A DNA stretch of 23,959 nucleotides. It comes from a virus. Positions 3,386 to 23,606 of the stretch are shown here, piece by piece (the stretch's first letter is position 1; each line of letters begins with the position of its first letter). The DNA is taken from IMG/VR virus record IMGVR_UViG_3300045135_000838, positions 1 to 23,959 of that record; one strand, 5' to 3'. The translations under genes and the position numbers were made by a program. Under the pieces are notes generated by a model, which saw only the letters and a program-made list of their open reading frames with translations, made no database searches and had not been told where the DNA came from.

Positions 3386-3850
3386 ATGGGATTTAGTAGT
3401 GCAATCAAATGGTTATCAATTCTGATAGTTGTCGGAGTATTAGCTGGTGGAGTGTACTACGTCTCTAATATGAAAGCTGCATTAGCTCAATCTGAAGAAA
3501 ATTCAAGAAAACTTCAGGAGTCTGTGCAGCAACAACAAGCAGTTCTTGAACAAAAAACAAAAGAAATTGAAGTAATTCAGGACTTAAATAGAACTCTTAA
3601 CGAACAGAATCAGAAACTACAAGCTGATATAGATAGTCTTAACGAGAGATTCAATGTTAGCGCAAATGGTACATCACGAGATTTTGGTGATATTACCCGA
3701 GCTAAGCCCGGTCTAATTAATAAGATTATCGATAAAGCTACTGATAATGTAAACAGATGTTTTGAAATTGCTACTGGATCACCTATCGAAGAAGGAGAAA
3801 AGAATAATGAGTGCCAAGAACTTATTAATTCTCTTACTGAGCAGCCTTAG
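3386..3850 (+). CDS. Inner-membrane spanin (Rz-like i-spanin)
   Basis: A 154-residue protein with an N-terminal transmembrane helix (about residues 8-28, the rest facing the periplasm). A long coiled coil rich in Gln, Glu and Lys follows (about 30-95), then a C-terminal globular part with two Cys. This is the type II membrane architecture of Rz-like i-spanins. Together with an outer-membrane lipoprotein, these fuse inner and outer membranes at the last step of lysis in Gram-negative hosts. The next gene, a lipoprotein, starts inside its last 44 bases in another frame, which is a hallmark arrangement of spanin pairs. T4 has its own pair (pseT.2 and pseT.3). The late promoter upstream agrees with the role. 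Confidence 0.8.
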   Translation: MGFSSAIKWLSILIVVGVLAGGVYYVSNMKAALAQSEENSRKLQESVQQQQAVLEQKTKEIEVIQDLNRTLNEQNQKLQADIDSLNERFNVSANGTSRDFGDITRAKPGLINKIIDKATDNVNRCFEIATGSPIEEGEKNNECQELINSLTEQP

Positions 3851-4193
3851 TATAACTGGGTGTACATCATTTAGTTTTGGACCTAAGGTCGACCCAATAG
3901 AAGTTCAAACTGTCGCGGTTGAGAAAACTCCATTAAATCTTGAGGATCCTAAACCTCTTAAACCAAAAGAAATCGAATGGCATGTTATTACACCTGAGAA
4001 CTTCCAAGAGGTTTTCGATGAACTAGAAGCCAATAATATTAGTATTGTGCTATATGGTTTATCGGATGATGATTATCAGGATTTATCAATGAATCTTGCC
4101 AGACTTCGAATGTTTATTTTACAGCAGAAGGCTATTATAGATTCATATAGGGAGTACTATGAGCCTCCTGAACCTATAAATAAAAATAATTAA
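3807..4193 (+). CDS. Outer-membrane spanin lipoprotein (Rz1-like o-spanin)
   Basis: I start at ATG 3807, not at the in-frame ATG 3762. From 3807 the protein opens with a lipoprotein signal: Lys, a Leu-rich core, then S-I-T-G-C with the lipidated Cys at residue 19. A good ribosome site (AAGGAG at 3791-3796) also lies 10 nt before it. The protein has 128 residues. A Pro-rich stretch follows the Cys, as in Rz1 proteins. It then has a longer C-terminal domain containing VFDELEANN, VLYGLSDDDYQDLS and LQQKAIIDSYREYY, making it larger than lambda Rz1. Its first 44 bases overlap the i-spanin gene. A terminator follows. Confidence 0.8.
   Translation: MSAKNLLILLLSSLSITGCTSFSFGPKVDPIEVQTVAVEKTPLNLEDPKPLKPKEIEWHVITPENFQEVFDELEANNISIVLYGLSDDDYQDLSMNLARLRMFILQQKAIIDSYREYYEPPEPINKNN
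4175..4182 (+). promoter_or_regulatory. TATAAATA late-type box inside the o-spanin 3' end
   Basis: A perfect TATAAATA octamer within the last codons of the o-spanin. It lies about 30 nt before the terminator at 4210-4240 and 106 nt before the next start codon. It might supply late transcripts for the 43-residue gene and ClpP by read-through, or a very short RNA, or it may be chance in AT-rich coding sequence. Confidence 0.35.
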
Positions 4194-4413: not shown

Positions 4414-4986
4414 ATGTTTCTACCACACGTTATTGAGAAAACAGGACGTTCAGAAAAACCCATTGACCTACCAAGTCGTTTACTACAAGATCGAATCATT
4501 TACTTTGGTACTGATGTAAACTCAGATACAGCTAATATTGCTATTATGCAACTTCTTTGGTTGGCTGCAGATGAACCAGAAGCTGATATTGATTTCTATA
4601 TTAATAGCCCAGGTGGTTCAGTATATGATGGATTAGCTATTAAAGATGTTATTGATTCGATCCCTTGTAAAGTTAATACAGTGGGCGTGGGTATGTGCGC
4701 ATCTATGGGTGCTTATCTATTAGCTGCCGGTACTGGCACACGTAAAGCTATGTCTAATACTCGTATTATGATTCACTCGGTATCTAGTGGTACTATTGGT
4801 ACATTCCACGATATGGAAGTTGATTACGAAGAAACTAAGTTTCTTCAAGATAATCTTATTCAGGATATTTCCAACTTTACTAAAGGTAAATCAACGGTAG
4901 AAGAACTTAAAGCTAAGACTCAACGTGATTACTATATGAGTGCCGAAGAAGCAATTAAATTAGGTCTAATTGACACCGTTGTATAA
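4414..4986 (+). CDS. clpP: ClpP serine protease
   Basis: A full-length ClpP of 190 residues. The whole family signature is readable: the N-terminal axial-loop segment VIEKTGRSEKPIDLPSRLL, YINSPGGSVYDGLAI (63-76), the nucleophile Ser97 in MCASMGAYLLAAG, His121 in RIMIHSVSSG, and Asp172 in QRDYYMSAEEA. Numbering is almost identical to Escherichia coli ClpP (Ser97, His122, Asp171). The enzyme should form the tetradecameric chamber, perhaps mixed with host ClpP. No ClpX or ClpA unfoldase is in the window, so it would need a host or remote ATPase. Likely roles are altered host proteolysis or a part in head maturation; three proteins with protease sites follow 35 nt downstream. It replaces nothing visible from the T4 gene order. 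Confidence 0.93.
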   Translation: MFLPHVIEKTGRSEKPIDLPSRLLQDRIIYFGTDVNSDTANIAIMQLLWLAADEPEADIDFYINSPGGSVYDGLAIKDVIDSIPCKVNTVGVGMCASMGAYLLAAGTGTRKAMSNTRIMIHSVSSGTIGTFHDMEVDYEETKFLQDNLIQDISNFTKGKSTVEELKAKTQRDYYMSAEEAIKLGLIDTVV

Positions 4987-4989
4987 ATA
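4982..4989 (+). promoter_or_regulatory. T4-type late promoter for internal head protein operon
   Basis: Perfect TATAAATA overlapping the clpP stop codon, 40 nt before the start at 5022. Spacing is the same as at the other late sites (36-46 nt before thioredoxin and the 18425 gene). It would drive the three capsid-precursor-like genes. Confidence 0.7.
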
Positions 4990-5021: not shown

Positions 5022-5051
5022 ATGAAATTTAGAGATATTTACGAAGGCAAA
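5022..5051 (+). repeat. Repeated capsid-targeting leader sequence, copy 1
   Basis: The first 30 bases of this gene and of the gene at 6839 are identical except for one codon (TAC versus GTT), 27 of 30 bases. The identity at wobble positions suggests recent duplication or recombination of the leader cassette rather than only protein-level selection. Confidence 0.7.
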
Positions 5052-5825
5052 CAGATTCAGGAAAGTCCTGAATCTATTGTCGCTTCATATAAAATGAGAG
5101 CTAAGATTCAAATGGATCGTTTATTAGCTTTAGTAAACAATTCAAAATCTGAGTTCGATGCTAAACATATTAGCCGTCAAATCGAAGACATGGCTGATGC
5201 TATAGATATCGATACTTATTACAGAAATCAAGAAGTTGAACCAATTGCGTCAAGTCCTGTAGCAGAATCCGAAATGAAATTCCAAGCTCTTGGAATGGCT
5301 AAAGAATTGCACAATAAACTAGCTGGTTTAACATTTATCGATATGTTAGCAGTTATGTCTCCAGACAATCCTGCGAAGAAAGAAGTTCAAAATCTTGAAA
5401 CTGCTATTAATGCACTTACTTCTGAAGTTGGTGAGTTCATTCAGAAATATATTCCAGATGTAGCTGATGCAGATGTTGGTGATACTGAGGAATATGCTGA
5501 ACCCGAGGAACCAGAAGAGCCTAAAGAAAAGGAAGCTCCAGAGGAACCTGAGGAAGAAAAAGAAGAAGAACCTTCTAAAGATCAGAAGAAAAAGATTAAA
5601 GATAACGAAAAAGAAGTTACTGAATCTGCTGAATCTGCTGAATCTTTAGAAGAAGGTTCACCAGTTCAAGATTTCAAAACTCTTATGTACAAAACAATGT
5701 ACGGTAAAGAATACGAAATGGCTATTAAAGTAATGCAAGATGAAAATATCTCTGCTGCTGATGCTGCTAAAAGATTCAGACATGTTGATGCTAGAGCATT
5801 AGCAGAACTATTTAAAAAATATTAA
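5022..5825 (+). CDS. Probable internal head / prohead core protein with capsid-targeting sequence
   Basis: A 267-residue protein. It starts MKFRDIYEG, with I6-Y7-E8 followed by Gly, which fits the T4 prohead protease gp21 consensus (Leu or Ile, any, Glu, then cut). It resembles the T4 internal-protein capsid-targeting leader in length and type. Helical regions occupy about 18-60 and 85-145. Residues about 154-208 are a low-complexity Pro/Glu/Lys linker, ending in L209-E210-E211 before Gly, a second candidate site. A C-terminal helical module (217-267) ends in basic residues. The first 30 bases match those of the gene at 6839 at 27 positions. The acidic linker and cleavage sites suit a scaffold/core protein that is processed during head maturation. 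No T4 gene can be assigned. Confidence 0.7.
   Translation: MKFRDIYEGKQIQESPESIVASYKMRAKIQMDRLLALVNNSKSEFDAKHISRQIEDMADAIDIDTYYRNQEVEPIASSPVAESEMKFQALGMAKELHNKLAGLTFIDMLAVMSPDNPAKKEVQNLETAINALTSEVGEFIQKYIPDVADADVGDTEEYAEPEEPEEPKEKEAPEEPEEEKEEEPSKDQKKKIKDNEKEVTESAESAESLEEGSPVQDFKTLMYKTMYGKEYEMAIKVMQDENISAADAAKRFRHVDARALAELFKKY
5622..5645 (+). repeat. Short tandem repeat in an acidic linker
   Basis: The 9-base unit GAATCTGCT occurs twice and two-thirds of a third time, encoding Glu-Ser-Ala repeats at the end of the linker of the 5022 gene. Likely slippage-prone and variable in length. Confidence 0.7.
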
Positions 5826-5837
5826 AGGATAATTAAA

Positions 5838-6839
5838 ATGAAATTTAGTAAATTCCACGCTGAATTAACTGAAGCTAAAAAGTTTAAAAAAGGCGACTCA
5901 GTTAAAATCAAAGATGTTAAAAAGTATGATGCTTTAGCTAAGGATGATGAAGGTACCGTTATCGGCATGATGGGTTCTAAAGTCATGGTTAAAGTTGGTA
6001 CTGGTCAAATGAATGTCGATCCTAAAGATCTTATTCTTGAATCAGATGAATTAACTGAAGGCAAGAAACTTCGCAATGTCCTTTCTGACAAAGAAATGGA
6101 AAAATCAATGAAAAAAGCTTTAGCTGATAAAGCTAACTACAAAGGTGGTAAAGTTAATTGGCCTTTCATTGATGCGGATATGTACATGGAACTAACTGCT
6201 AAAGGTTATGATTTACGTCATCCATCAGTTGATTACATGAATCGTTTTGATAAACTTGCTGATAAGCTTGATCCAGAAATGAACGAAGGTGTAAGACTTG
6301 CAGAAGCTTCTAAATACACAATTGAAGTAGCTGTTCGTGATGCTCGTAAAGCCAACGAAATTCTACAAGATATGTTCAGAAATGATTATAAAACAAAGGG
6401 TTCAAATGTTTTTGTATTTAAAGACGAAGAAACTGCATATGACGCCGGTATGACTTTAATGGCTCAGGAAGTTGAAGTTACTAAAGAAAATGTTGGTTTA
6501 GATGAATCAGTTAATGAATCTCGTAAAGATGCTCCAAAAGGCGATCGCAATACAACTGCTGAGAATCCACTAATTGTTGTTTACGATGACGAATTTACTA
6601 AAGGTAAACCAGGTATGTCTGGTATGATGAATCTACAAACTTGGATGCACATTCACGGTATTTCTAAAAAGTTCCAGAAAGAACTAGCTGAAATGGTTCT
6701 TAAAGCTGGTGCTGGTAAACAGACTGAAGTTTCTAAGAAGATTCTAAAAGATACTCATGATGAATACAAAGAAGAAGGTTTACGTCCTAAGCGTTACTGG
6801 ATTGAACTTTCTAAACATCACGCTAAAGAGGTGAAATAA
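5838..6839 (+). CDS. Modular internal head protein precursor with SH3/KOW-like domain
   Basis: A 333-residue protein that reads like a small polyprotein. It opens MKFSKFHAELTEA, with L10-T11-E12 before Ala fitting the T4 gp21 cut rule. Two more candidate sites lie at L72-T73-E74 before Gly and L154-A155-E156 before Ala. They separate modules. Residues 13-74 hold a KOW/SH3-like barrel (KGDSVKIKD, DEGTVIGMMGSKVMVKVG, then DPKDL). Residues 75-156 hold a mixed helical domain with a Trp-Pro-Phe core. Residues 157-333 hold a further alpha/beta part with a basic C-terminus. Cleavage would release small proteins inside the head, as with T4 internal proteins. It is the middle gene of the late unit and its stop overlaps the next start (TAATG). 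Confidence 0.7.
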   Translation: MKFSKFHAELTEAKKFKKGDSVKIKDVKKYDALAKDDEGTVIGMMGSKVMVKVGTGQMNVDPKDLILESDELTEGKKLRNVLSDKEMEKSMKKALADKANYKGGKVNWPFIDADMYMELTAKGYDLRHPSVDYMNRFDKLADKLDPEMNEGVRLAEASKYTIEVAVRDARKANEILQDMFRNDYKTKGSNVFVFKDEETAYDAGMTLMAQEVEVTKENVGLDESVNESRKDAPKGDRNTTAENPLIVVYDDEFTKGKPGMSGMMNLQTWMHIHGISKKFQKELAEMVLKAGAGKQTEVSKKILKDTHDEYKEEGLRPKRYWIELSKHHAKEVK

Positions 6840-6868
6840 TGAAATTTAGAGATATTGTTGAAGGCAAA
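6839..6868 (+). repeat. Repeated capsid-targeting leader sequence, copy 2
   Basis: Counterpart of 5022-5051; 27 of 30 bases identical, encoding the same M-K-F-R-D-I-x-E-G-K leader. Confidence 0.7.
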
Positions 6869-7327
6869 GCATTAGATCCTAAGGATGTAGTTGCGTATCT
6901 TGTTAAAACTGGCGTAAATCCCAAGGATGCAGAAGAAGCTGTTAAAAAAGGTTTCGATTATGCTAATAAGAAATATGGTGGTGCTACCTATAAAGCTGCT
7001 GTGAAGAAAGTTGCTGAAGTAGTTTGGACATTACATGAATCTACAGATACTGTAAACGAAGATCATTTCAAAGTTGGTGATGAAGTTAAGTGTATCGCCT
7101 CTGGCATGACAGGTAAAGTTGTTAAACTTGACAAAGATGCTGGTGATGCATATTATGTCGTAAAAAGAGAAGATGGTTCTGAAAAGAACTACAAACCTGA
7201 AGAACTTAAGATTCTAACTGAAGGTATGGAAGATGTTATTGCTGATGTGAAACATGATGGAAACACTATCCGTGTTCATGTACACGGTGGTAAATATGTA
7301 CTAAAAGTTAATGGTGAAGAAGTTTAA
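6839..7327 (+). CDS. Internal head protein precursor with SH3/KOW-like domain
   Basis: A 162-residue protein starting MKFRDIVEG, with I6-V7-E8 before Gly as a gp21-type cut site, almost the same leader as the 5022 gene. Further candidate sites are L65-H66-E67 before Ser and L126-T127-E128 before Gly. Between them, residues 76-124 form a KOW/SH3-like barrel (FKVGDEVKCIASGMTGKVVKL then PEEL) like the one in the 5838 protein, so the two genes share both leader and domain. The region before it (15-64) is helical and Lys-rich; the last 30 residues form a short beta domain. The start is coupled to the upstream stop by TAATG. A promoter and a strong terminator follow. Confidence 0.7.
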   Translation: MKFRDIVEGKALDPKDVVAYLVKTGVNPKDAEEAVKKGFDYANKKYGGATYKAAVKKVAEVVWTLHESTDTVNEDHFKVGDEVKCIASGMTGKVVKLDKDAGDAYYVVKREDGSEKNYKPEELKILTEGMEDVIADVKHDGNTIRVHVHGGKYVLKVNGEEV

Positions 7328-7379: not shown

Positions 7380-7411
7380 AAGGTAATCTGGTAAAACAGG
7401 TTACCTTTTTT
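7380..7411 (+). terminator. Strong rho-independent terminator after the head-protein operon
   Basis: An 11-bp stem, AAGGTAATCTG (7380-7390) with CAGGTTACCTT (7397-7407), one G-T wobble, loop GTAAAA, ending in six T. It closes the late operon of internal head proteins. It lies just downstream of the promoter at 7347-7376, so new transcripts begin at or inside the left arm. Confidence 0.85.
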
Positions 7412-11077: not shown

Positions 11078-12598
11078 ATGAAACAATTCGAAGCCACTTA
11101 CCGTGACGGTTTTAACTTCTTTGAACGATACTATGATACCAATCTAGGTCGCTCAGTTAAAAAACGTATTGACCTACCATACGAATGGTTCGAACCATCC
11201 AGCCGTGGTACGTACTCTTATATCCTTGACGAGAGTATTAAACTAGAGAAAAAACAGGGTAATGCTAAACAAGGTCGTGAACACTACGGTTTCATGGATC
11301 CTATGTACCGTAATATCCGTGACAACTACTGGAACAAAGAGGATGGTTATAACAATGATCCTCGCATCTGGTACCTGGATATTGAGACCCGTGTAGGTAC
11401 ATGCAGTACCGGCTTTCCAGTTCCTGAACGTGCTGCTGAACCTATCAGTATGTTCCAGTTCTATGACAACAAAGAAGATGTCCTTATCATGCTTGGTGTC
11501 CGTGACTGGGAGAAACAGGATGAATACATTGCTAAACTTAAAGAAGAACAAGGCATCACAACCAAGTACATCAAGTGCAACGATGAAATCCATCTGATTG
11601 AAACATTCCTGAACATCTTCAATAAACTGGATCCACTCATTGTCTATGCTTGGAACGGTAACGGATTTGACTTTCCTTACATCCACAACCGTATCAAAAA
11701 CCTAGGTATTGACACTAGCCGACTATCTAACTATGGCAAGGTTTCATACCGTGAATCAGAGTTCCAGGGACGTATGGAATTCCGTGTTGATTCTGATGGA
11801 CACTTCTTTATCGACCTTATGGAAGTATACAAGAAGTTTACATTCCATCCTATGGCATCATACTCACTCGACACTGTAGCCGAGTTTGAACTCAAAGAAA
11901 ACAAAGTAAACCATGACCAATACGGCTCATTCGACCAGTTCTATACAGATGGTCATGATGAATTCTGTTACTACGGTGCAATCGATACATACCTAATCAA
12001 ACGCATTGATGAGAAAAAGAACTTCACAGTCCTTATGTCTATGATTGCCGAGAAGATGGGTGTCCAACTGTCTGATTCAATGGGTACAGTGAAACCTTGG
12101 TCACAGTACATCAGTAACAAATCACTACTATCTAATCAGATTCTGCCTATGAAAACAGAACATCCTGATCCTAGAGTAGTTGGTGGTTATGTCCGTGAAA
12201 CAGAGAAAGGTAAACATAAATGGGTTATTTCTGCCGACGTGAACTCAATGTATCCACTACTCGGTATGGTTGGTTTCAATATGTCTCCAGAAACATATAT
12301 TCCTAAACATAAACTACCACCTGAACTACGTGATATTATCCTAGCCAAGTTCAACGACCAGGAAGAAGGTGATCGATTCGACATCCCTGAAGAACTTTGG
12401 AAACGTACAACTGAGCTACTCCAGGAACATAACATGGCTCTTGGTGTTAATGGTGCTGTATTCAGTAAGGATAAAATCGGTATGGTCCCAGAAATGGTTC
12501 AGGACATCTATGGCTCTCGTAAAAAGGCTAAGAAAAAACAGTTCGCGTATGAACAACGCAAGATCCTCATTAAAGAAATCCTGAAGGAGAAAGCATGA
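11078..12598 (+). CDS. 43A: DNA polymerase gp43, N-terminal part (exonuclease and first half of palm/fingers)
   Basis: A 506-residue family B polymerase fragment. The 3'-5' exonuclease has all three motifs: D101-I-E103, Asn and Asp198 in AWNGNGFDFP, and Asp303 in YYGAIDTY. These equal T4 D112/E114, D219 and D324 with a near-constant offset. Motif A of the palm is DVNSMYP with Asp387 (T4 D408). The chain then runs into the first fingers helix, rich in Lys (SRKKAKKKQFAYEQR), and stops. Motifs B and C are in the separate gene at 12798. The break falls near the tip of the two-helix fingers, where a cut chain could still fold with its partner. The stop overlaps the next start as ATGA. The ribosome site is CAAGGA. 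Confidence 0.93.
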   Translation: MKQFEATYRDGFNFFERYYDTNLGRSVKKRIDLPYEWFEPSSRGTYSYILDESIKLEKKQGNAKQGREHYGFMDPMYRNIRDNYWNKEDGYNNDPRIWYLDIETRVGTCSTGFPVPERAAEPISMFQFYDNKEDVLIMLGVRDWEKQDEYIAKLKEEQGITTKYIKCNDEIHLIETFLNIFNKLDPLIVYAWNGNGFDFPYIHNRIKNLGIDTSRLSNYGKVSYRESEFQGRMEFRVDSDGHFFIDLMEVYKKFTFHPMASYSLDTVAEFELKENKVNHDQYGSFDQFYTDGHDEFCYYGAIDTYLIKRIDEKKNFTVLMSMIAEKMGVQLSDSMGTVKPWSQYISNKSLLSNQILPMKTEHPDPRVVGGYVRETEKGKHKWVISADVNSMYPLLGMVGFNMSPETYIPKHKLPPELRDIILAKFNDQEEGDRFDIPEELWKRTTELLQEHNMALGVNGAVFSKDKIGMVPEMVQDIYGSRKKAKKKQFAYEQRKILIKEILKEKA

Positions 12599-12801
12599 AA
12601 ACGGTAAATAAGATCTGCTCTTGTTGTGGATACAAACGTACTGACTTCTACGTAAATCAAAAGACCGGCAGAGCTAATAAATACTGTCGTGAATGTGAAA
12701 CAACTTTTACACCAAAAGAACGCAAAGAGCAGGAACTTAAATGGCTTGTTGGTATAATGACTGATATTAACATCACAGATAAACTTAAGGACAAAGAATG
12801 A
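12595..12801 (+). CDS. 68-residue zinc-finger protein between the polymerase halves
   Basis: The start ATG overlaps the stop of the upstream polymerase gene, and its own TGA overlaps the start of the downstream one (ATGA on both sides). The N-terminal half is a Cys4 zinc motif: C8-S-C10-C11, then C31-R-E-C34, with YKRTDFYVNQKTGRANKY between. This resembles the small treble-clef finger found at the start of many phage HNH homing endonucleases. No HNH catalytic His or Asn motif is present in the remaining 30 residues, which form a Lys/Glu helix. It is most likely the eroded or repurposed remnant of the mobile gene that split gene 43. It could also now act in translation coupling or polymerase assembly. 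Confidence 0.75.
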   Translation: MKTVNKICSCCGYKRTDFYVNQKTGRANKYCRECETTFTPKERKEQELKWLVGIMTDINITDKLKDKE

Positions 12802-13916
12802 GAGACCCACTAGATTACACAGAAGATGAACTCCGTGCTCTATCAGCTGATGAGCTAAAAGAACTACTTAATCTAGCAGAACGTGGTGAATCACTCTTCA
12901 ATACTAGGCAGTTGGTTGAGAAAACCATGATCAACTCCTTGTATGGTGCTATGGCAAACAAATGGTTCCCACTTTTCAACGAGGACATGGCTGCTGCTAT
13001 CACTGGTAATGGTCGATACTTTATCCGTCTATTGGCTGATTACATCGAGGATGCTCTTCAGGCTATTATGCCAGCAGATAAACCATACATCATCTATGGT
13101 GATACTGACTCCGTGTACTATCAAATTGAACCTATCATGGAAGCATACCAAGCCAAAAACCCAGGATTGTCTATTGATGAGTACGTAACGTGGGCTGATA
13201 ACTTCGAGAAAAAGGTAGTCCAACCTGCTATTCAGAAAACCATTGATGACTTTGCATATACTCTTAATGCATATGATAAGGATTCAATTGGTGCTGAACG
13301 TGAGATCATTGCCGATGCGGCAGTACTGGTTGCTAAGAAAAAGTACTTTGCCCGTGTACGTGATTCCGAGGGTACTCGTTACCCAGAAGATTCACCATAC
13401 ATTAAACGAATGGGTCTTGAGGTAATCAAATCCAGTACACCTAAATGGTCACAGAAATACCTTAATGCTGCTATCCCTCATATCCTCGACAAGGATGAGA
13501 ATGATCTTCGTAACTGGGTTAATGAAATCAAACAGAACTTTACCCAGGCTGATCTGAATGACATTGCAGCTGTTGGTGGTGTGTCTAACCTTGGCTATAC
13601 CCTAGGCGATAAAGGCATCCCATTCGGATCTCGTGCAGCTCTAATACACAATAAATATATTAAAGAACACGGCTTAGATGACCGCTATACTCCTATCCAA
13701 GCTGGTGATAAGTGTAAACGTTTGTTCCTACAAACTCCTAACAAGTTTGACTCTGAGATCATTGCATATACTCATGATGGCTTCACAGCTGAACTTCAAG
13801 GTCATATCGACTATGATACACAGTTCGAGAAAACGTTCATGAAACCACTCGAGCTTATGGTTGCTCCTCTTGAGTACAACCTCGAAAAGGAAACCGAAGA
13901 GCTGGATGATTGGTAA
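12798..13916 (+). CDS. 43B: DNA polymerase gp43, C-terminal part (fingers, palm, thumb)
   Basis: A 372-residue fragment completing the polymerase. The first 40 residues (DYTEDELRALSADELKELL) align by eye with the second fingers helix of T4 gp43. Motif B is K42-TMI-N46-SLY49-G (T4 K560, N564, Y567), motif C is YGDTDS with D102 and D104 (T4 D621, D623), and the KKKYFA and GMEVIKSSTP-like segments follow. The C-terminus, KPLELMVAPLEYNLEKE then ELDDW, corresponds to the T4 tail that binds the sliding clamp. Together the two fragments have 878 residues against 898 for T4, so little sequence is lost. Both halves keep every catalytic residue and should form an active split enzyme. Confidence 0.93.
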   Translation: MRDPLDYTEDELRALSADELKELLNLAERGESLFNTRQLVEKTMINSLYGAMANKWFPLFNEDMAAAITGNGRYFIRLLADYIEDALQAIMPADKPYIIYGDTDSVYYQIEPIMEAYQAKNPGLSIDEYVTWADNFEKKVVQPAIQKTIDDFAYTLNAYDKDSIGAEREIIADAAVLVAKKKYFARVRDSEGTRYPEDSPYIKRMGLEVIKSSTPKWSQKYLNAAIPHILDKDENDLRNWVNEIKQNFTQADLNDIAAVGGVSNLGYTLGDKGIPFGSRAALIHNKYIKEHGLDDRYTPIQAGDKCKRLFLQTPNKFDSEIIAYTHDGFTAELQGHIDYDTQFEKTFMKPLELMVAPLEYNLEKETEELDDW

Positions 13917-18424: not shown

Positions 18425-19063
18425 ATGGGTTCTTTTAAAACGTATCTAAAAGAGAATGAAGATCTTTTAGCAAAAATTATGGCTGAACTTGATGAGCTTT
18501 CTGATGAAGAGCTAGGTGAGTTCGGTGAAGTTCTTTATTATGAATTCTTTGATGATGAAGAATCTTATGAAGATGATTACGACTTCTTTGACAAAGAAGA
18601 TGTTCAAGCAATGGTTAAAGAACTTGGTGCTGATATGTACGAAGAAATTCTTGACATGCTTGAAGAAATCGAAGAAGATAATGAAGATGAAATTGACGAA
18701 GCTAAAAAGATGGATGACAATCCATGTTGGGAAGGCTACGTTATGGTTGGAACCAAGCTAAAAGATGGTAAAGAAGTTCCTAACTGTGTTCCTGAAGAAG
18801 ATGTTACTGAAGAGATGCGTGAAGCTGTTTCTCGTATTATGAAACAGAAGAACAAAAATCGTAAAAAACGTAAGTTCATGAGCAACTCTAAAGCTGATCT
18901 TCGTAAAACAAAAGCTAAACGTAAGAAAGATGCTCGTTTAAACAAGGCTAAACGTAAGCGTTACTACCGTGCTAATAAAGCTAAAATCTCTGCATACCAA
19001 AAATCACGTTCTGCAGCTATTAAGAAAGGCACTCATAAAGTTAAAAAGCGTCGTTCAGCTTAG
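18425..19063 (+). CDS. Probable internal head protein precursor: acidic N-half, basic C-half
   Basis: A 212-residue late protein with two halves of opposite charge. Residues 1-92 are extremely acidic (long runs of Asp and Glu). The leader MGSFKTYLKE is like T4 capsid-targeting sequences, with L8-K9-E10 as a possible cut site, and I90-D91-E92 before Ala fits the gp21 protease rule exactly. The part after it starts with NPCWEGYVMVGTKLKDGKE then VPNCVP, a motif I recall from structural proteins of T4-like marine phages. It continues into about 75 residues dominated by Lys and Arg (RKKRK, KAKRKKDAR, KAKRKRYYR). Cleavage would discard the acidic half and leave a DNA-binding basic protein in the head. 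It is followed by the hairpin at 19071. Confidence 0.7.
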   Translation: MGSFKTYLKENEDLLAKIMAELDELSDEELGEFGEVLYYEFFDDEESYEDDYDFFDKEDVQAMVKELGADMYEEILDMLEEIEEDNEDEIDEAKKMDDNPCWEGYVMVGTKLKDGKEVPNCVPEEDVTEEMREAVSRIMKQKNKNRKKRKFMSNSKADLRKTKAKRKKDARLNKAKRKRYYRANKAKISAYQKSRSAAIKKGTHKVKKRRSA

Positions 19064-23067: not shown

Positions 23068-23603
23068 TGAATATTTTCTACCTTCACAAAGATCCAGTTA
23101 AATGTGCAGAGATGATGCATGACAAACATGTAGTTAAAATGATCCTCGAAACAGCACAACTATTGTGTACAGCACATCGTATTTTGGATGGCGAAATGTA
23201 TGTTGGTCGTACAGAAAACACAGGTCGTAAAGTGAAGCGCTGGAAAATGAATGACGAATTCATGGAATCTAAGCTGTATAAAGCAACACATGTCAATCAC
23301 CCATCAGCCATTTGGGCACGTCAGTCTAACAATAACTACAAATGGTTATATCAACATTTCGTAGGTTTATGTCAAGAATATACTTACCGTTATGGTAAAA
23401 CACACATGTGTGAAGATAAACTCATAATTGCATTGGCTATCCCACCTAAAAATATCCCAATTAATTTCCTATCAGAGATGCCACAAGCTATGCCAGATGA
23501 GTACAAACGTGTTAACCCAGTAGATGGTTACCGTGCTTATTACATTGGCGAAAAAGTCCAGCAGTCAAAATGGACTAAACGTTCTGTACCTGAATGGATA
23601 TAA
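23067..23603 (+). CDS. Conserved phage protein (MNIFYLxKDP family), unknown function
   Basis: A 178-residue frame coupled by TAATG to the previous gene. Its start, MNIFYLHKDPVKCAEMMHDKH, followed by VVKMILETAQLLCTAHRILDG, is a pattern I recall from hypothetical proteins in T4-like and other tailed phages. Further blocks are THVNHPSAIWARQSNNNYKWL and a C-terminal VDGYRAYYIGEKVQ with Lys-Trp. The conserved His, Lys, Asp and Trp residues look like an enzymatic or nucleic-acid-binding site, but the activity is not known to me. It closes the early operon; the late box at 23599 overlaps its stop. Confidence 0.8.
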   Translation: MNIFYLHKDPVKCAEMMHDKHVVKMILETAQLLCTAHRILDGEMYVGRTENTGRKVKRWKMNDEFMESKLYKATHVNHPSAIWARQSNNNYKWLYQHFVGLCQEYTYRYGKTHMCEDKLIIALAIPPKNIPINFLSEMPQAMPDEYKRVNPVDGYRAYYIGEKVQQSKWTKRSVPEWI

Positions 23604-23606
23604 ATA
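23599..23606 (+). promoter_or_regulatory. T4-type late promoter for hsp20
   Basis: Perfect TATAAATA across the stop codon of the preceding gene, 75 nt before the hsp20 start, a longer leader than at the other late boxes. The leader is folded (next entry). Confidence 0.65.

Follow-up and report, generated by a model that had tools for sequence, protein, structure and literature searches.

The window, the whole stretch of DNA that was analyzed, spans 23,959 nt of a 24-kb virus record. Its large terminase subunit shares 67% identity with those of pv27, phiTY18, and phiKT1024, all T4-like phages of Vibrio, and short stretches of the window match these three phages and Va1 at the DNA level. For comparison we used pv27 (191 kb), the nearest annotated relative, whose entire genome was read; G004, a 205-kb relative; and the sister contig L010, whose B and C proteins are 98% and 94% identical to those of the window. 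The window also holds a split DNA polymerase (11078 to 13916; open reading frames at 11078 to 12598 and 12798 to 13916, with a zinc-ribbon-like frame at 12595 to 12801 between them), a layout repeated in pv27 at 112368 to 115304, and an overlapping Rz/Rz1-like spanin pair (3386 to 4193; PHROG matches, E = 3e-14 and 7e-12).

A preliminary description had placed an operon of three consecutive genes, encoding internal head proteins, at 5022 to 7327, and open reading frames A, B, and C were found there. That extent proved too narrow for the whole set, to which we added gene D, which shares the leader type and promoter motif of the other three and has its own copy of that motif. Searches of phages with full-length B and C (tblastn) matched almost nothing. 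The features are as follows (↓, predicted cut; res, residues).

4982 to 4989, +: T4-type late promoter motif TATAAATA, upstream of A-B-C; also at the A homologs of L010, pv27, and Va1
5022 to 5825, +: gene A, 267-aa precursor (leader, A1, A2 core with acidic tail, A3)
5022 to 5045, +: A leader MKFRDIYE, capsid-targeting-like; its MKFRD start is invariant across five A homologs
5064 to 5267, +: A1 module, res 15-82, with borders IQE↓S and VAE↓S; missing in pv27, Va1, and G004
5268 to 5654, +: A2 conserved core and E/P-rich acidic tail, res 83-211
5655 to 5822, +: A3 basic module, res 212-267, starting after LEE↓G
5838 to 6839, +: gene B, 333-aa precursor (leader, KOW/SH3, B2, B3, B4)
5838 to 5873, +: B leader MKFSKFHAELTE
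5874 to 6059, +: B KOW/SH3-like barrel, res 13-74, ending at ELTE↓G
6060 to 6305, +: B2 module, res 75-156, between LTE↓G and MNE↓G/LAE↓A
6306 to 6506, +: B3 module, res 157-223; found again in L013/L014 and MaF61 ORF140 (a protease fusion), with flanking xE sites in all
6519 to 6836, +: B4 basic C-terminal region, res 228-333
6839 to 7327, +: gene C, 162-aa precursor (leader, C1, KOW/SH3, C3)
6839 to 6862, +: C leader MKFRDIVE
6863 to 7039, +: C1 basic helical module, res 9-67; found again in L011 and within a 625-aa polyprotein of L016
7061 to 7222, +: C KOW/Tudor-like barrel, res 75-128, ending at ILTE↓G
7223 to 7324, +: C3 short beta-strand module, res 129-162, from the AF2 model
7380 to 7407, +: intrinsic terminator of the A-B-C unit; same in L010
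18389 to 18396, +: late promoter motif TATAAATA, upstream of D; also at the D homologs of L021-L024 and pv27
18425 to 19063, +: gene D, 212-aa precursor (leader, acidic region, CW cassette, basic fragment)
18455 to 18700, +: D acidic region, res 11-92, net charge -34
18701 to 18823, +: D "CWxGY...VPNCVP" cassette, res 93-133, between IDE↓A and MRE↓A
18824 to 19060, +: D basic fragment, res 134-212, net charge +33, pI 12; preceded by a site in 6/6 homologs

Transcription signals and the prohead protease

The late promoter and the terminator proposed for the A-B-C unit were both located, the latter likewise in the sister contig. The motif TATAAATA is not rare by itself (5 in the window against 2.9 expected). 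In pv27, copies precede gp19, gp20, gp22, gp23, and the homologs of A and D by 29 to 48 nt, and none precedes the four replication genes checked. Its presence at homologs of A and D and at head genes points to late expression of A and D. Further copies stand at 2805 to 2812, before a thioredoxin-like gene (2851), and at 23599 to 23606, before an Hsp20-like gene (23674).

A homolog of gp21, named beforehand as a check, is present in the relatives: an S77 (gp21-type) protease (PF03420) was found in pv27 (E = 1.7e-24), G004 (2e-24), and G001 (1e-13); contig L013 encodes a gp21-family protease. A search of the 24-kb window itself found no S77 gene, and gp21, gp22, and gp23 are all absent from the contig. 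Directly upstream of A-B-C is a ClpP-family protease gene (4414 to 4986; PF00574, E = 1.4e-50), whose pv27 homolog carries the label head maturation protease; that label is probably a mistake, because pv27 has a separate S77 gp21. The upstream gene was considered as the processing enzyme and rejected: it belongs to the ClpP family, which is not known to have LxE specificity, and the relatives have S77.

Leaders and predicted cut sites

The T4 gp21 cut motif is L/I-X-E, and ten residues of IPIII are enough for targeting (PMC9026906). Genes A, B, and C had been described as starting with short leaders that end in (I/L)-x-E before Gly or Ala, and their leaders read MKFRDIYE↓G, MKFSKFHAELTE↓A, and MKFRDIVE↓G; all three thus have the T4-type capsid-targeting form ((I/L)xE plus a small residue), and the D leader ends in LKE↓N. 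Each internal site named earlier was also found, and the full set of internal sites is 211 LEE↓G in A; 68 ILE↓S, 74 LTE↓G, 150 MNE↓G, 156 LAE↓A, and 223 LDE↓S in B; and 67 LHE↓S and 128 LTE↓G in C.

Sites of the form [IL]xE↓[AGS] were counted per open reading frame and compared with composition-preserving shuffles. B has 5 against 0.55 expected (P < 0.001) and C has 3 against 0.21 (P = 0.001), a 9- to 14-fold excess that ranks them first and second among 37 open reading frames in the window; in A the excess is not clear (3 against 0.97, P = 0.065). To test the method, 319 open reading frames of pv27 were scanned likewise; the top three places went to the scaffold gp22, an Alt-like ADP-ribosyltransferase, and gp21, and in T4 the proteins of these three types undergo gp21 processing. 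gp22 again ranked first in G004, where several chance open reading frames also scored high, so counts alone are not a detector; as a general detector or as proof they were rejected, A not being significant either. The pv27 product at 55918 to 58014 (L005 5918-8014), annotated as hypothetical, is probably the Alt counterpart, because its leader is capsid-targeting-like (KLKFSTFIKE↓S) and an ADP-ribosyltransferase domain was detected in it (PF03496, E = 5e-12).

Structure models (AF2) were built with very shallow alignments (mean pLDDT, 47 and 57) and gave confident strands for the B and C barrels only (B 21-67 and C 82-125; local pLDDT mostly 64 to 83); most predicted sites in B and C sit in low-confidence linkers. 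Fold claims outside the two barrels were dropped, the models being too weak. Foldseek and Pfam matched the barrels to Tudor, KOW, and MutS2-SH3 domains, with Pfam scores below the curated cutoff, and together with the modeled strands these matches suggest a five-strand SH3-like barrel in each. The earlier claim that two of the proteins share a KOW/SH3-like barrel ending at LTE-G stands, for B and C, in the predicted fold and the LTE↓G ends; the two barrel sequences are not significantly similar (P = 0.17), so the barrel is shared at the fold level only.

Module gain, loss, and recurrence at the sites

Modules have been gained or lost between two sites in close relatives, twice in A and also in D. 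The A protein of L010 is longer by a 64-aa insert whose ends fall precisely at DDLTE↓A and SNLTE↓G, and the window has ESLEE↓G at this point; A1 is an extra N-terminal module of the window protein relative to pv27, Va1, and G004; and the 41-residue CW cassette of D is present in L021 and absent in pv27, L022, L023, and L024. For these three indels, the chance that an insert of equal size would have a site at both ends within ±2 aa is 0.019, 0.029, and 0.025, with a joint value of about 1e-5. A [ILVM]xE↓[AGS] site stands closely before the shared A2 core in 5/5 A homologs. A likeness of A3 to the tail of the L016 protein (FRHVDARALAELF and FRGVDARILARMV) is suggestive and weak (E = 0.005) and was not used.

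Gene D is split by charge. Across the four homologs tallied, the N-terminal part has a net charge of -34 to -38 and the 79-residue C-terminal part +31 to +33, and the site before the basic domain has the form [LM]xE↓[AGS] in 6/6 homologs with a varying middle residue. The basic tail had no tblastn match in phages, the query probably having been masked as low complexity. We infer that cutting D would free a DNA-binding fragment from its acidic partner; if so, D suggests that DNA-binding fragments of the head may start out in charge-neutral precursors and be exposed by proteolysis.

Three of the modules, one each from B, C, and D, recur in unrelated polyproteins of phages. B3 is found in a 651-aa protein of L013/L014 and in Flavobacterium phage MaF61 ORF140 (L003 6534-10748; 1,404 aa), whose N terminus is related to the prohead proteases of other phages and is followed by B3 and many modules separated by LNE/LxE sites; by its layout, ORF140 looks like a self-contained head polyprotein. 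C1 recurs in L011 and within the 625-aa L016 protein, and C1 from L016 had no tblastn match in phages. The CW cassette recurs in cyanophages, in halovirus HSTV-1 (inside a gene annotated as head maturation protease), in Rhodobacter phage RcZahn (in a gene flanked by those for the maturation protease and the major capsid protein), and in some members of the cytidylyltransferase family (Sf-CH8 gp135 and L016). The 651-aa polyprotein of L013 (2651 to 4606) also contains, away from its start, a second stretch that resembles a leader, MKHVKLFEAFVNE↓K, as a fusion of two leader-bearing genes would leave.

Eighteen module occurrences (3 each of B3 and C1, and 12 of the CW cassette from T4-like or unassigned phages) were scored for [ILVM]xE↓[AGSND] within 20 aa on both flanks, with all placements in the same proteins as the expectation. 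Both flanks carried a site in 13/18 occurrences against 1.7 expected (P = 1e-11); the relaxed motif was fixed after cases had been seen, the strict motif is significant too (6/18 against 0.68 expected, P = 9e-6), and the occurrences are not all independent. In the other 5, one flank or both had no site. Four control motifs flanked both sides in 0 to 2 of the 18; one of the four, a polar-xE motif, served to control for E-rich linkers. Sites thus coincide with the borders of independently recurring modules far above chance, which bears out the proposal that internal sites separate the modules. A literature search, with subscription journals mostly outside it, found no paper describing modules bounded by prohead-protease sites.

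Proposed maturation, alternatives, and known systems

Polyprotein processing is strongly supported by these sequence comparisons. The likely reading is that T4-type internal head proteins have here been elaborated into cassette polyproteins that are cut by the prohead protease. The prediction of several small mature, head-packed proteins per gene holds as the best reading because A to D have T4-type leaders, the relatives encode S77, and sites fall at module borders. A, B, C, and D would be precursors made late, each brought into the prohead core by its short N-terminal capsid-targeting leader. The S77 protease (gp21) would cut after (I/L/V/M)-x-E, taking off the leader first and then parting the modules, so that each gene would give several small proteins kept in the head with the DNA; the cut in D would part its acidic half from the +33 basic fragment, then free to bind DNA. 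The cut sites would double as evolutionary joints, at which head precursors acquire, drop, and exchange modules. We infer that the fragments of A to D are cut, packaged, and injected.

One alternative shares the cleavage step and gives the pieces another fate: these proteins would be core or scaffold filler like T4 gp67 and gp68, packed into the prohead, cut by gp21, and mostly expelled before DNA entry, with no host function. It fits the cutting of gp22, gp67, and gp68 into multiple fragments (PMC9026906, PMC5694885), the long acidic stretches in A and D, and the occurrence of CW and B3 modules in protease or scaffold proteins; indeed, the long acidic region of A and the acidic half of D may serve as core filler or charge masks and then be discarded. 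We nevertheless consider it unlikely for the set, as two modules between sites are predicted folded barrels rather than scaffold-like coiled coils, the D fragment is strongly basic and suited to staying with DNA, and cytidylyltransferases, which are related to one module family, remain in virions, having been detected in those of cyanophages (PMC3037559, PMC10665884).

The proteins could instead be ordinary T4-like internal proteins that lose the leader only, as is known for T4 IPI-III, and stay whole as mature multidomain proteins, with internal (L/I)xE in the linkers for other reasons. A has no significant site excess, and E-rich linkers do raise chance matches (the polar-xE control hit 15/36 edges against 8.2 expected). 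That control motifs bracket modules in only 0 to 2 of 18 occurrences against 13/18, that indels end at sites, that the D junction keeps its site in every homolog despite the varying middle residue, and that B and C have a 9- to 14-fold excess together make this quite improbable. That these are cytoplasmic late proteins unrelated to the head, their leaders and sites a coincidence in E-rich phage proteins, is very improbable: KOW/Tudor barrels could act on the host ribosome or RNA polymerase, but the late-promoter motif common to gp19-gp23, the leader conserved in A homologs, the fusion of modules to head proteases, and the both-flank statistics (13/18 against 1.7) all speak against it.

Some fragments may act on the host, as the earlier suggestion of host-takeover effectors has it. 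The proposed domain search of the fragments returned the Tudor, KOW, and MutS2-SH3 matches of the barrels and no enzymatic or antidefense match for any fragment in PADLOC, Pfam, NCBIfam, or PHROGs, and a search of a defense/antidefense library likewise gave nothing. pv27 is annotated with a beta-glucosyl-HMC-alpha-glucosyltransferase, and its phage group may carry glucosylated hydroxymethylcytosine. DNA with this base is a target of type IV restriction enzymes, and T4 internal proteins protect such DNA. Antirestriction is therefore a reasonable function to consider first, and by analogy with T4 IPI-III it is our leading guess. T4 Ip1-3 are injected and inhibit type IV restriction enzymes (PMC12373910).

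It seems to us as likely as not that, across T4-like and some other tailed viruses, the prohead-protease motif serves generally as a joint at which modules are exchanged. Head precursors would then be open cassette strings, in which inserted small proteins are copackaged, cut free, and delivered; this proposal would take in the protease-fused string of MaF61 and charge-masked DNA-binding fragments like that of D. If true, the cut-site rule would predict which phage genes are head delivered, and into what pieces, and would explain how new packaged proteins are added without evolving a new targeting signal each time. Should the rule find many more candidate injected proteins in marine phages, their functions would be directly testable. 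The most useful new points are the indels ending at sites, the recurrence of site-bracketed modules, and the charge-split gene D.

Among known systems, polyvalent proteins (Iyer et al. 2017, PMC5512222) are, like A to D, multidomain, likely capsid packed, and shuffled in their domains. They contain embedded peptidases and recognized effector enzymes; no embedded peptidase or recognized effector domain was found in A to D, where the prohead protease would separate modules without recognized activity. The inner-body or ejection proteins of phiKZ and SPN3US, which gp175/gp245 cut (PMC10052503, PMC5694885), are packed in the head, and a gp21-related protease matures them after x-E, cutting each propeptide several times, much as proposed for A to D. 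These cuts remove long N-terminal propeptides, whereas the sites of A to D would part reusable modules, and the motif of SPN3US differs, gp245 cutting after AxE several times per propeptide (PMC10052503). Cleavage of T4 gp22 and the core proteins yields several fragments (PMC9026906), and gp22, gp67, and gp68 have dense L/IxE sites and several pieces, as predicted for A to D; their pieces are mostly lost from the head, whereas A to C have leaders and predicted globular domains. Family searches with A to D gave no result pointing to T4 IPI-III. T4 IPI, IPII, IPIII, and Alt (PMC9026906, PMC12373910) resemble A to D in the short (I/L)xE plus small-residue leader, late expression, an S77 protease (here seen in relatives only), and their nature as variable accessory genes, several per genome. 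Each of the T4 internal proteins is one small protein cut once, at its leader (Alt bears a propeptide at either end [PMC5694885]), whereas A to D would comprise several modules between many sites.
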